A stretch of DNA of 61,991 bases from Chromatiaceae bacterium (GTDB lineage: Bacteria > Pseudomonadota > Gammaproteobacteria > Chromatiales > Chromatiaceae). Shown piece by piece: positions 14,094 through 18,613 of this stretch. Under the pieces are notes generated by a model. It made no database searches. It was not told the origin of the DNA and was given only the letters and a program-made list of their open reading frames with translations. The translations under genes and the position numbers were made by a program. The stretch lies in NCBI GenBank assembly GCA_024639005.1, contig JAHEJD010000004.1, positions 1 to 61,991 on the forward strand, written 5' to 3'. Each line of letters starts with the position of its first letter. Position 1 is the first letter of the stretch.

Positions 14094-16931
14094 ATGGACA
14101 CGATTCAAATCCGCGGCGCCCGCACTCATAACCTGAAGAACATCGATCTGGCGCTGCCGCGCGACCGGCTGATCGTCATCACCGGCCTATCCGGTTCGGG
14201 GAAGTCGTCGTTGGCGTTCGACACCATCTACGCAGAAGGCCAGCGGCGCTATGTGGAGTCGCTGTCGGCCTACGCCCGTCAGTTCCTGTCGATGATGGAG
14301 AAACCCGACGTAGACCATATCGAGGGGCTGTCGCCGGCGATATCGATCGAGCAAAAGACGACCAGCCATAATCCGCGTTCAACTGTCGGCACGATCACCG
14401 AGATCTACGACTACCTGCGCCTGTTGTTCGCACGTGCCGGCACGCCGCGCTGCCCGAGCCATGGCGAACGCCTGGAGGCGCAGACAGTCAGTCAGATGGT
14501 GGACCAGGTGCTGGCGCAACCTGCAGGGAGCAAGCTGATGTTGCTGGCGCCCGTGATCTCCGAGCGCAAAGGCGAATACCACAAGCTGCTCGCAGAACTC
14601 CACGCCCAGGGGTTTATTCGGGCCCGCATCGACGGCGAACTGTTCGAGCTGGACGATCCGCCGGAGCTCGACCTGCACAAGAAGCACACCATCGAGGTGG
14701 TCGTCGATCGCTTCAAGGTGCGTGACGACATCGGGCTGCGGCTGGCCGAATCCTTCGAGACTGCCCTACACCTCGCGGACGGCGTCGTCCGGATCGCCTG
14801 GATCGACGCGGATCCGGCCAGGCCGCAGCCGGACCTGGTCTTCTCGGCCAACTTCGCCTGCCCTGTGTGTGGCTACAGTATCGAGGAATTGGAGCCGCGC
14901 CTGTTCTCGTTCAACAACCCGGTCGGCGCCTGCGCGACCTGCGACGGTCTCGGTGTCGAGCAGTTCTTCGATCCGCTCAAGGTAGTCGCACACCCGGAGC
15001 TGTCGCTGGCCGGCGGTGCAGTACGCGGTTGGGACAGGCGCAACGCCTATTACCACCAGATGATTCGCTCCTTGGGTAAGCACTACGGGTTCGACCCCGA
15101 GACACCGTGGAGCAAGCTATCCGAGGAGATTCATGGGGTCCTCCTCCACGGCAGCGCTTTCGAGGCCATTGAGTTCAGCTATTTCAACGAGCGCGGCCGG
15201 GCGGTCAAGAAGACCCATCCCTTCGAGGGCATCATCAACAACATGCGGCGGCGATACCGGGAGACCGAGTCGAATGCGGTCCGGGAAGAGCTGGCGCGCT
15301 TCATCTCCTCACAGCCCTGTCCGGATTGCCAGGGCAGTCGTCTGAACGAGGCGGCACGCAGCGTATTCGTCGCCGAACACGATCTACCGTCGATCACCGG
15401 CATGGCGGTCGAGGGCAGCCTGGCGTTCTTCGAACGCCTGGACCTGCCAGGCAAACGGGGCAAGATTGCCGCCAAGATCGTCAAGGAGATCAACGATCGC
15501 CTGCGTTTCCTGGTCAACGTCGGCCTGAATTATCTGACGCTGGACCGCAGCGCGGAGACCCTGTCGGGCGGTGAGGCGCAGCGCATCCGTCTCGCGAGCC
15601 AGATCGGCGCCGGCCTGGTCGGGGTAATGTACGTACTCGACGAACCCTCGATCGGTCTGCATCAACGCGATAACGAACGCCTGCTGAGCACGCTGACCTA
15701 TCTGCGCGACCTTGGCAATACCGTGATCATGGTCGAGCACGACGAGGACGCGATCCGCAGCGCCGATCATGTCGTCGACATCGGCCCACGGGCGGGCGTG
15801 CACGGCGGCCAGGTGGTGGCACAGGGCGGCATCGAAGACATCTGTGCGGTGGCCGGCTCGATCACCGGCGACTATCTCGCCGGTCGCGAGCGTATCGAGT
15901 TGCCCGAGAAACGCCACCCCCTCGACCGCAAGCGCGTGCTAAAGATCGAGGATGCTCGGGGAAACAACCTCAAAAAGGTAAAACTCGAGATCCCTGCCGG
16001 CCTGTTCACTTGCGTGACCGGTGTATCCGGTTCAGGCAAATCGACCTTGATCAACGACACCCTGTACCCGCTGGCGGCGAATGAACTCAACGGCGCCAAT
16101 CACAGCGTTGCGCCCTTCAAGAAGGCGACCGGAATGCAGCATTTCGACAAGGTGGTAGACATCGATCAATCGCCGATCGGCCGCACACCTCGTTCCAATC
16201 CCGCCACCTATACCGGCCTGTTCACGCCGATCCGTGAACTCTTCGCCGGGGTTCCCGAGGCACGATCGCGCGGCTACACACCCGGACGTTTCAGCTTCAA
16301 CGTCCGGGGCGGCCGCTGCGAGGCCTGCAAGGGCGACGGCGTCATCAAGGTCGAAATGCACTTCCTGCCCGACATCTATGTGCAATGCGACGTCTGCAAG
16401 GGCAAGCGCTACAACCGCGAGACCCTGGAGATTCAATACAAAGGCAGACGCATCAACGAGGTACTGGCGATGACGGTCGAGGATGCGCTGGCCTTTTTCG
16501 CCGCAGTGCCGGTAATCAAGCGCAAACTGCAGACCTTGATGGACGTAGGCCTGAGTTACATCACCCTGGGGCAGAACGCGACCACGCTGTCGGGCGGCGA
16601 GGCACAACGGGTTAAGCTGTCGCGCGAGCTATCCAAACGCGACACCGGGCGAACCCTGTACATTCTCGACGAACCAACCACCGGGCTGCATTTCCACGAC
16701 GTGAAACAGCTGCTAAAGGTGTTGCACCGCCTGCGCGATCATGGCAACACCATTGTCGTCATCGAGCACAATCTGGATGTGATCAAGACGGCCGATTGGA
16801 TCATCGACCTTGGACCCGAGGGCGGCGACGGCGGCGGCGAGATCATCGCCACTGGGACACCCGAGCAGGTCGCCGACATGGCACACTCACATACCGGACG
16901 CTTTCTCGCACCGGCCCTGGCGAAGGCCTGA
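14094..16931 (+). CDS. uvrA: Excinuclease ABC subunit A
   Basis: A 945-residue damage-recognition ATPase of nucleotide excision repair, acting with UvrB. It has two ABC modules: Walker [10 protein letters not shown] at 31-39 and GVSGSGKST at 643-651, and signatures LSGGEAQR from 490 and from 832. Zinc-binding CxxC pairs are visible ([11 protein letters not shown] with [14 protein letters not shown] with CDVCKGKR). It is colinear and near-identical in length to E. coli UvrA, starting [18 protein letters not shown] did not see a CTG-N10-CAG LexA box in the 176-bp upstream gap, so SOS control is not evident here. Confidence 0.97.
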
Positions 16932-16966
16932 GCGCTGCGCGATTCAGAGCGGCTGCCGTTGGTCGG

Positions 16967-17135
16967 CTAGGAGTCTGCGCGGCAGAACTGGCGGATACCG
17001 AGGGTTGTCCAGTTCGAGGCCGGTCTGGTGGTCGTTTGAGGAGCATAGTGGGTACTACGCGACTAGAGCGAGCGCCGGAGCGGGCCGAAGGGGGGAAGCC
17101 GCAGGACCGCTACGTTCTGCCGCGCAGACTCCTAG
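16967..17135. repeat. MITE-like element A: 22-bp perfect inverted repeats flanked by CTAG
   Basis: The left arm at 16967-16988 (begins CTAGGAGTCTGCG) and the right arm at 17114-17135 (ends CGCAGACTCCTAG) are perfect reverse complements over 22 bp. The outer four bases are CTAG on both sides, so the repeat can be read as 18-bp terminal inverted repeats flanked by a CTAG target duplication. Such YTAR targets are known for the IS5 group. The 125-bp interior has no credible protein. This is the size and form of a non-autonomous miniature transposon or a folded RNA/DNA element. No transposase is in the window. Confidence 0.7.
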
Positions 17136-17314
17136 GCTGCAAATCTCACCGTTTTTCGTCGCGAGGGTGCCGAGACGCCGCCATGGCGGGGCGCACGCAG
17201 TGAAAGGCGGTGAAGGCGAAGCTTAACTACGTAGAACCGGCTGCAGCGAGTACGCCCCGTCAGCATGAGTGTATCGCCGCCCGCAGCAGGAAATCAGTGA
17301 GATTTGCAGGCTAG
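17132..17314. repeat. Adjacent element B: 18-bp imperfect inverted repeats, also CTAG-bounded
   Basis: The left arm at 17132-17149 (CTAGGCTGCAAATCTCAC) and the right arm at 17297-17314 are reverse complements with one mismatch in 18 bp. It shares its left CTAG with the right end of element A, and its right CTAG supplies the stop codon of the next gene. The interior contains the palindrome CCGCCATGGCGG (17178-17189) but no credible gene. Elements A and B form two tandem cassettes delimited by three CTAG sites, or one element inserted at the edge of another. Confidence 0.6.
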
Positions 17315-17853
17315 AAGCGCCCGTTGGCGACTGAGCCGGGAGGGGACGCAGGCTTTAGCCGCGCCTCGAGCTGAAAGTACTTATCCTTCAGGCACAGGAG
17401 CTCGTTCGTCTTTTCACGCAGGGCCGCCTTGGCCGCGGCGAGCTCACGCCGATTCTGCTCTTCGCGGCGCAGCACAGGGCGAAAATCGCTCAACTGCCGT
17501 TGCAGCCGCCGGTTTTCCTCGACCAGCTTGTCCTTCAGGCGCTGCATCTGCTTGAGTTCGTACTCGACCTCACGCAGTCGACGACTGCGCTCAACCAGCG
17601 CATCGCGCTGCGCCCGGATCAACTGCTTGGCCGCTGGTGATTCAGCGACGCCGCCCGCCTGATCAGCGAGCTGCTCCTGCAGCCGCGCATTGCTCTCCGA
17701 CAGGATCTGGTTCTGCACCAGGAGATCGCGATAGGCCTTTTCGAGGGTGGCGCCCGCCATTCGCTTCGCATCCGCATCCGCATCCGGCATGGCGTCGGTC
17801 TGCTGATCGCGTCCAACCAAACGTCTCAACGACAATCTGCGCTCTCGCTTCAT
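17311..17853 (-). CDS. Predicted coiled-coil protein of unknown function
   Basis: A 180-residue, highly charged protein rich in Arg, Glu, Gln and Leu. Long helical heptad-like stretches run from about residue 36 to 60 and 80 to 165 (EVEYELKQMQRLKDKLVEEN, RRELAAAKAALREKTNELL). There is no signal peptide, membrane segment or enzymatic motif. I choose ATG 17853 (MKRERRLSLRRLVG) because GGAG lies 8 bases upstream. An in-frame ATG 36 bp earlier lacks this. The TAG stop at 17311-17313 lies within the CTAG boundary of repeat element B, so the C-terminus may have been set by that insertion. I do not recognise a named family. Confidence 0.7.
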   Translation of the reverse strand: MKRERRLSLRRLVGRDQQTDAMPDADADAKRMAGATLEKAYRDLLVQNQILSESNARLQEQLADQAGGVAESPAAKQLIRAQRDALVERSRRLREVEYELKQMQRLKDKLVEENRRLQRQLSDFRPVLRREEQNRRELAAAKAALREKTNELLCLKDKYFQLEARLKPASPPGSVANGRF

Positions 17854-17938
17854 GACCCATTCTCCCCGTACAAGGCAGACCCCGCACAATCTCGTATCCG
17901 TCGCGGCGCCCGGTCAATAACCAACCGGGTGCCTGACC

Positions 17939-18613
17939 TCAGATCATTCGCTGGGGCGTAAAGACCATCACGCCACCTCGCTTGCGACCTCGACCCATGG
18001 CGGTCGCCAGTGCCAGTCCAAGCAATCCCGAGAACCACACCAACCAGCTCGCCACGATTGGCACACGCCCCTGCGATGGCGAGACCAGGCCGACATTCAC
18101 CACGCCCGCCGAGGCCGGCCCTGTCGACCAGGTCCAGTCCGCGAGGCTTCCCACCCGCTGCAACGAGCTCCCCACTGGGGTCGCGCTGCCTTCGGCGATC
18201 GGCAGCGCCCGCGCCGTCATCCCGGCGGCAAGACCCTCGGTCGCGACAAAGGCGCCTTCGTAGGCGACGAAGTCAATCACTGCGTCGGCCGCCGATATCA
18301 ACGCCACCGCATCCGGCCCGTTCTGCATGCCACCCGCTGTCCAATGGACCTCGGCCAGCCCATTGCCGGCGCCGAGCATGCCCGTCAAGGGCAGTGCATC
18401 GTAAGGGCTGCCGTTCGCGCCGTTGTAGAGCACGATCTGCCAGCCGGAGAGGTCAAGGCCTGGCGAACCGCTAACCGCGACGAACTCGCCAACATCAGAC
18501 CCTGCATTGTCATAGTGGAGCTCACTGATGAAGGGTGAGATCCAGGTTGCCCGGGCGGGCAGCGTACAAACGAGCAGCAACAGCGCCATGGGCGCCAAAC
18601 GATCACTAGCCAT
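17939..18613 (-). CDS. Secreted lamin-tail-like protein with C-terminal sorting-type anchor
   Basis: A 224-residue exported protein. Residues 1-22 form a signal peptide (ALLLLVCTLPARA). Residues 26 to about 125 resemble a lamin-tail (LTD) beta-sandwich (ISELHYDNAGSDVGEFVAVS, LSGWQIVLYNGANG), a domain common in surface and nuclease-linked proteins. The end has VP at 184-185, a hydrophobic helix at 186-206 and a basic GRGRKR at 207-212. This is reminiscent of PEP/VPxP-CTERM exosortase tails but followed by 12 extra residues. GGAGG precedes the ATG by 5 bases. The basic cluster after the helix could equally be an ordinary membrane anchor. Function is unknown. Confidence 0.7.
   Translation of the reverse strand: MASDRLAPMALLLLVCTLPARATWISPFISELHYDNAGSDVGEFVAVSGSPGLDLSGWQIVLYNGANGSPYDALPLTGMLGAGNGLAEVHWTAGGMQNGPDAVALISAADAVIDFVAYEGAFVATEGLAAGMTARALPIAEGSATPVGSSLQRVGSLADWTWSTGPASAGVVNVGLVSPSQGRVPIVASWLVWFSGLLGLALATAMGRGRKRGGVMVFTPQRMI

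Follow-up and report, generated by a model that had tools for sequence, protein, structure and literature searches.

Two adjoining MITEs, here called A and B, lie between a gene that we take from its protein sequence to be uvrA and a convergent neighbor in the window, the whole 61,991-bp stretch of DNA that was analyzed. On the most probable reading, both are moved in trans, A by IS1182-family and B by IS1380-family transposases, and each holds a hairpin core that is selected on one strand. This strand-polar core, seemingly common to both families, was beyond the reach of the earlier note, which had only the sequence of the window to go on.

Two multi-copy elements at one intergenic site

A and B are MITEs: they are short, have no transposase gene, have inverted ends, duplicate their target and occur as dispersed copies, and the window locus is an empty site in relatives. 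The three CTAG sites that the earlier note had seen, with cassettes of 161 and 175 bp between them, are present in the sequence (table 1). Its perfect 22-bp ends for A, in which CTAG is part of the arms, were recovered by an inverted-repeat search, as was a 27-nt pair for B (85%, 17129–17155/17291–17317) whose outer 18 nt from CTAG contain the one mismatch reported before. The cassettes had also been described as noncoding, and the ORF list, used here instead of a gene finder, shows no coding content in either; plus-strand ORFs of 135 and 138 aa cross A, both beginning within uvrA in other frames. Folding gave −114.4 kcal/mol for A (z −10.8) and −90.4 kcal/mol for B (z −6.4), with 0 of 200 shuffles that low in either case. 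A simple scan of 16850–17450 found no terminator or sigma-70 promoter, and Rfam returned 0 matches at E 1 for 16000–18500.

Table 1. Positions of elements A and B, their parts and the neighboring genes
Feature	Position	Strand	Evidence
Element A, IS1182-ended MITE, 169 bp with CTAG at both ends	16967..17135	+ (strand with G-U-rich fold)	Near-full copies, n = 7; R1 156.7 bits (+) vs 85.5 (−)
Element B, IS1380-type MITE, 183 bp with CTAG at both ends	17132..17314	+ (lower-folding strand)	At least 40 places, some partial; R2 187.2 bits (+) vs 58.8 (−)
CTAG, left target duplicate of A	16967..16970		Sequence
CTAG common to A and B	17132..17135		Sequence
CTAG, right target duplicate of B; on − gives TAG stop of convergent gene	17311..17314		Sequence, ORF, comparison with relatives
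A left inverted end including CTAG	16967..16988	+	Inverted-repeat search
A right inverted end including CTAG	17114..17135	−	Inverted-repeat search
B left inverted end including CTAG, one mismatch	17132..17149	+	Sequence
B right inverted end including CTAG	17297..17314	−	Sequence
Apical part of A core, family consensus TTTGAGGCG.ATAGT..CTA..TAACGA	17038..17063	+	Alignment; position by eye
B motif TCGTCGCGAG, counterpart of A-family TCGTAGCGAG	17156..17165	+	Alignments; position by eye
B motif CGCAGCAG, counterpart of A-family CGCAGTAG	17282..17289	+	Alignments; position by eye
Neighbor, presumably uvrA	14094..16931	+	ORF; conserved in relatives
Convergent neighbor gene, function unassigned	17311..17889	−	ORF; present in 8/8 other genus members

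The home genome, a draft of 3.2 Mb in 155 contigs, contains seven near-full copies of A with a few short pieces, and B in at least 40 places, some of them partial (40 of 98 candidates scored). The end pattern of B has 61 + 58 = 119 genome matches against 0 + 0 for a reversed-pattern control. The multi-copy state of both cassettes in the genome, the excess of B end patterns over the control and folds far below those of shuffled sequences together mean that these inverted repeats are not due to chance. Two size variants of the B type, of 71 and 143 bp, occur at L277 367–437 (G000:C24) and L278 283–425 (G000:C97), the latter with CCTGGAAATCTCACCG ends in CTAG, an end variant that recurs many times in the home genome. 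Also present is a 76-bp minimal hairpin with the ends of A in CTAG and another interior (G000:C55:8549–8624; L016, L062).

When copies are aligned, their similarity stops at a YTAR-like tetranucleotide. The left and right 4-mers of B agree exactly in 11 of the 53 pairings listed, with spurious and overlapping ones all retained (permutation p 0.0004; p 0.015 by summed matches); the matching pairs include CTAG, CTAA, TTAA and TTAG, and many copies show worn tetramers. Remote copies show the same, their two edge 4-mers being identical in 19 of 29 A members and in 16 of 27 B loci. The left tetramer of B reads CCAG in 13 of the 53 pairings, against three with CTGG on the right; it resembles a worn CTAG, and the sides are relative to contig orientation. 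CTAG itself is scarce in the window (29 sites, where base composition predicts 218 and a Markov estimate 50).

The earlier note had proposed looking in relatives for empty sites, and these exist for the window locus. The convergent gene is found in 8/8 other members of the genus, and in six relatives it adjoins uvrA with a gap of 6–91 bp and the insert absent (6/6); in L265 and L271 uvrA falls outside the available stretch, so they were left out of this count. In the window 379 bp separate the two genes, which comes to 35 bp once the 344-bp insert is subtracted. The convergent gene terminates at a TAG that the right CTAG supplies (17311–17313); judged by eye, the stop at about the same place is TGA in five of the six relatives and TAG in L269. 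DNA relatives of A or B were not found on plasmids, with one partial plasmid match for a remote A member. The B end pattern was absent from viral contigs, and a variant A end matched four of them near the ends of the available stretches.

Ends in common with IS1182 and IS1380 elements

The end of A occurs in at least 120 stretches of public genomes, by their titles from Beta- and Gammaproteobacteria, Acidobacteriota and a few others. At three loci, two in Janthinobacterium sp. CG3 and one in Aquincola (L112, L130 and L162), it bounds both sides of CTAG elements of ~1.53–1.55 kb, and the two transposases tested (L130 and L162) belong to the IS1182 family. A has the same ends as ISKpn6, which reads CTAGGAGYCTGCGCGGCAGA and is flanked by CTAG at either side; the two ends of ISKpn6 match each other at 19/20 positions. 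An IS1182-family transposase acting on ISKpn6-type ends would thus be the candidate mover of A in trans. Unlike A, ISKpn6 and related IS1182-family ISs are autonomous and carry a transposase, and the IS1182 elements tested are without the A core. The covariance model of that core (R1, below) matches L112, L130 and L162 at their ends only, so these ISs do not contain the core. A is end-matched to IS1182, and its origin by internal deletion of an IS is not supported, its interior not being traced to one.

Other arrangements of the A-type end were seen. L112 4530–6100 (Janthinobacterium sp. CG3) has an IS1182-family IS centered in a near-perfect palindrome of its flanks with CTAG at the mid-point, and L153 4974–5303 (Massilia aquatica) has two nested A-type end pairs, seemingly one MITE inside another. 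L099, L104, L171 and L191 form a separate class of A-ended MITEs of 156–157 bp, with a GGGGT.CTTTACCCCTT block in the interior and the polar core absent.

The ends of B resemble those of IS1380-family elements in the home genome and its relatives, which lie beside TTAG, CTAG or TTAA; in none of these genomes did a single contig show both ends of such a copy. Perfect CTAG-CCCGCATTTCTCACAG ends bound the IS1380 elements annotated on plasmids of Stutzerimonas and P. putida, and the ends of a Bradyrhizobium IS1380 element match at 18/20. Remote B members have ends the same as or very similar to those of the plasmid elements, also with CTAG on both sides, and the ends of B in the window differ from known IS1380 ends at 3–4 of 16 positions. 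The plasmid ISs of Pseudomonas and Stutzerimonas are autonomous, unlike B, which would be moved in trans by an IS1380-family transposase. A further difference within this family is that IS1247 is listed with a 5-bp duplication (PMC3281130). In another paper IS1380 serves as the outgroup for piggyBac, which mostly uses TTAA (PMC10813416).

The earlier note had also proposed looking for a transposase gene with matching ends. ISs elsewhere do share the ends, IS1182 those of A and IS1380 those of B relatives. In the home draft genome no intact transposase of either family was found, only IS1380 fragments and one weak IS1182 stretch. The partners have therefore been lost, are absent from the draft or were active in the past. 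A broken IS1380-family element has one end at G000:C5:1–754 and the other at G000:C106:5796–6388 (L240, L241, L280), each at a contig end. Transposition of A and B is well supported, and we judge it highly probable that they are MITEs with a common YTAR target that would be mobilized in trans.

A hairpin core with strand polarity

A-ended elements of 166–169 bp from other bacteria align with A over their full length. The alignment A1 and the model R1 were made from 27 of 37 elements (7 own copies and 30 from named contigs, 150–200 bp), omitting the own copy L015 and L099, L104, L116, L121, L142, L147, L167, L171 and L191, which have another length or interior; L121, L167 and L015 (C115) still score as core members. 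In A1, 90.8% of the cells pair and covariation is 0.500, against 0.171 in shuffled and 0.093–0.113 in slid alignments; 41 of 60 pairs have changes on both sides, as do 30/30 in the inner helix. Conserved unpaired stretches include, close to the apex, portions of TTTGAGG and AACGA. Among the 369 genomes scanned from one class, R1 finds the core in at least 85, which represent at least 69 of 272 genera, both lower bounds as the scans with R1 and with the B model R2 scored at most seven candidates per genome. The end type of A itself recurs in only one of the 29 remote members (L317), the others having GGAGCCTGTCGGACTT, GGAGGCTGTCCGAGAAT and similar ends; covariation and unpaired motifs of the core are thus kept while its ends vary. 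Rfam has no match over the element in A, and its two matches among 20 remote loci both fall outside the element.

A simple palindrome would be expected to hold as many G-T as A-C mismatches, since one becomes the other when the complementary strand is read. The training set, oriented by sequence similarity to A, has 134 G-T vs 26 A-C, and the remote set, oriented by the model, which favors G-U (the asymmetric unpaired motifs agree), has 129 vs 10, in counts of nonindependent events. With a structure derived without G-U the numbers are 43 vs 15, mirrored on the reverse strand as 13 vs 40; when G-U pairs are permitted, the reverse strand gives 57 vs 48. The forward strand folds lower in 26/27 training and 29/29 remote members. 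We consider it likely that the core of A is under strand-specific selection.

The rival reading that A and B are ordinary IS1182 and IS1380 leftovers, their hairpins functionless traces of an inverted origin, is unlikely. It finds a precedent in print, MITEPye1 of Paracoccus yeei, a 159-bp IS1182-linked element with 18-bp IS1182-like ends, a 4-bp duplication, an intergenic site and a predicted long RNA stem-loop (PMC11578231). By this description it resembles A in size, ends, duplication, location and stem-loop; it differs in being of low copy and limited to one species, and the accessible part of the report mentions neither a conserved core nor a second family of transposases. Some A-ended elements with other interiors do score near equally on both strands of R1 (L116 64.3/63.5, L099 56.7/55.3, L171 56.6/54.4 and L198 60.6/60.2 bits), and the strands of others are moderately apart (L147 65.1/47, L142 58.1/40.3 and L103 66.3/51.5, compared with 156.7/85.5 for A itself). 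However, the core of A keeps its covariation and unpaired motifs although its ends change, the three IS1182 elements match R1 at their ends only, and a passive palindrome would not show polarity.

Our preferred reading is that selection on one strand maintains the hairpin between the ends of each element, and that the core would most likely act as transcribed RNA, a folded target of RNase III or another protein. We favor RNA over single-stranded DNA as the selected form, with some reservation. The same polarity would result if the hairpin of one DNA strand were recognized while DNA is being transferred or replicated, in the manner of REP/RAYT or IS200/IS605 systems, since G-T pairs are tolerated in DNA hairpins too, and GTAG occurs twice in the A-family consensus. 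This alternative is improbable, slightly more so than that of functionless leftovers: A and B have paired ends, a 4-bp duplication and ends in common with DDE-type ISs, in contrast to REP/RAYT and IS200/IS605 systems, and GTAG is not conserved in many B copies. Orientation to neighboring genes has no clear bias among 56 elements by a crude ORF method (upstream 30 vs 24, downstream 25 vs 29), as single-stranded DNA recognition would also allow; polarity therefore seems tied to the element itself, and a role set by orientation to neighboring genes was rejected.

The case for a core in B is weaker than that for A. Among home copies 36/36 fold lower on the same (forward) strand, with G-T 220 vs A-C 24, and both partners vary at 15 of the 51 pairs; with a structure derived without G-U only 17 pairs are left and the asymmetry is gone (G-T 7 vs A-C 6). 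Remote B loci fold lower on the forward strand in 26/27 cases, with G-T 101 vs A-C 25, and R2 finds B in at least 23 of 369 genomes and 20 of 272 genera.

Relation between the two families

The earlier note had offered either two mobile families with one target or one element landing at the edge of the other, and both fit the duplicated YTAR, the empty sites and the ISs with the same or similar ends. If both insert at CTAG/YTAR and duplicate 4 bp, each edge would become a new target. An inserted element is bordered by CTAG on either side, where a member of the other family can insert in turn, and this would have formed the tandem. A second A-B tandem, with B reversed, is present at C49:30001–30349. 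Tandems expected by hand calculation number ~0.4 (29 CTAG per 61,991 bp giving ~1,500 per genome, 14 A edges, 40 B copies), and two were observed. Joint movement of A and B as one composite unit, suggested by B at the right edge of two of the seven near-full A copies (C59 and C49), is rejected as extremely improbable because B is reversed at C49, and further since the joint match list has five A copies without B, R2 found no B in the available stretches around 29 remote A members, and target sharing by itself yields the tandems estimated above.

The two cores were compared by model and by sequence. R1 matches 8 of 27 remote B loci at E 1e-15 to 0.055 (two are copies from one genome, and three match through the interior only), all on the B forward strand, with none on the reverse strand of the 27 loci at E 0.1. 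On seven home B copies scored unfiltered, the forward strand was best in 7/7 (16.8–31.8 bits), and R2 in turn matches one of 34 A-bearing sources, L301, on the matching strand (27.1 bits). Three short blocks stand in the same order in A and B, namely CGTAGCGAG, the apical TAGT..CTA part and CGCAGTAG. Fifteen of 22 other B genomes also have A, vs 5.0 expected (p 3e-6, relatedness ignored). A sequence-only comparison is weak, scoring in 10 of 62 forward B interiors (best 6.1 bits), 0/62 reverse and 2/620 structure-keeping shuffles (L363, near-identical to L343, was left out of the 62), and in a test of the two consensuses z was 2.4 and the best of 150 shuffles exceeded the observed value.

The evidence is evenly poised on whether the two cores are homologous. 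Their likeness may reflect common descent with swapped ends or convergence on one binding partner, and it may be that one type of hairpin core travels with two transposase systems that are not related. The common CTAG target would let elements land beside or inside each other, favoring end exchange, as the A-B tandem illustrates; repeated exchange between the two end types is conceivable, if rather doubtful. Equally tentative is a selfish RNA hairpin not bound to one transposase, the same strand-specific core appearing with IS1182-type and IS1380-type ends.

Parts of this picture are already known. Beside the IS1182-linked hairpin MITEs (PMC11578231), MITEPsy1 of Pseudomonas syringae, as described in the accessible text, inserts after CTAG or YTAA, duplicates its target and was shown to move (PMC3189936); it is like A and B in target and duplication, and differs in its length of 100 nt, its other ends and its listing as IS5?. 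Correia/NEMIS and ERIC are widespread, small MITEs with folding transcripts, and RNase III cuts Correia transcripts, according to a review that also gives 178–235 bp for the Chunjie element (PMC10969869); A and B resemble them by this description in spread, size and predicted folding, the features covered by the comparison. A description of the core of A was not found in searches of the open-access literature on IS1182/IS1380 MITEs, CTAG hairpin MITEs, or MITEs and RNase III.

MITEs are usually viewed as passive IS leftovers. If our reading is true, a covarying, strand-specific hairpin with conserved loops, found in at least 85 of 369 sampled genomes of the class and linked to two families of transposase, would count as a structured element that is as yet uncurated and lives selfishly. 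One could then test if selection acts on bacterial MITEs for an RNA role that is theirs, and by what route a small element comes to use another transposase.
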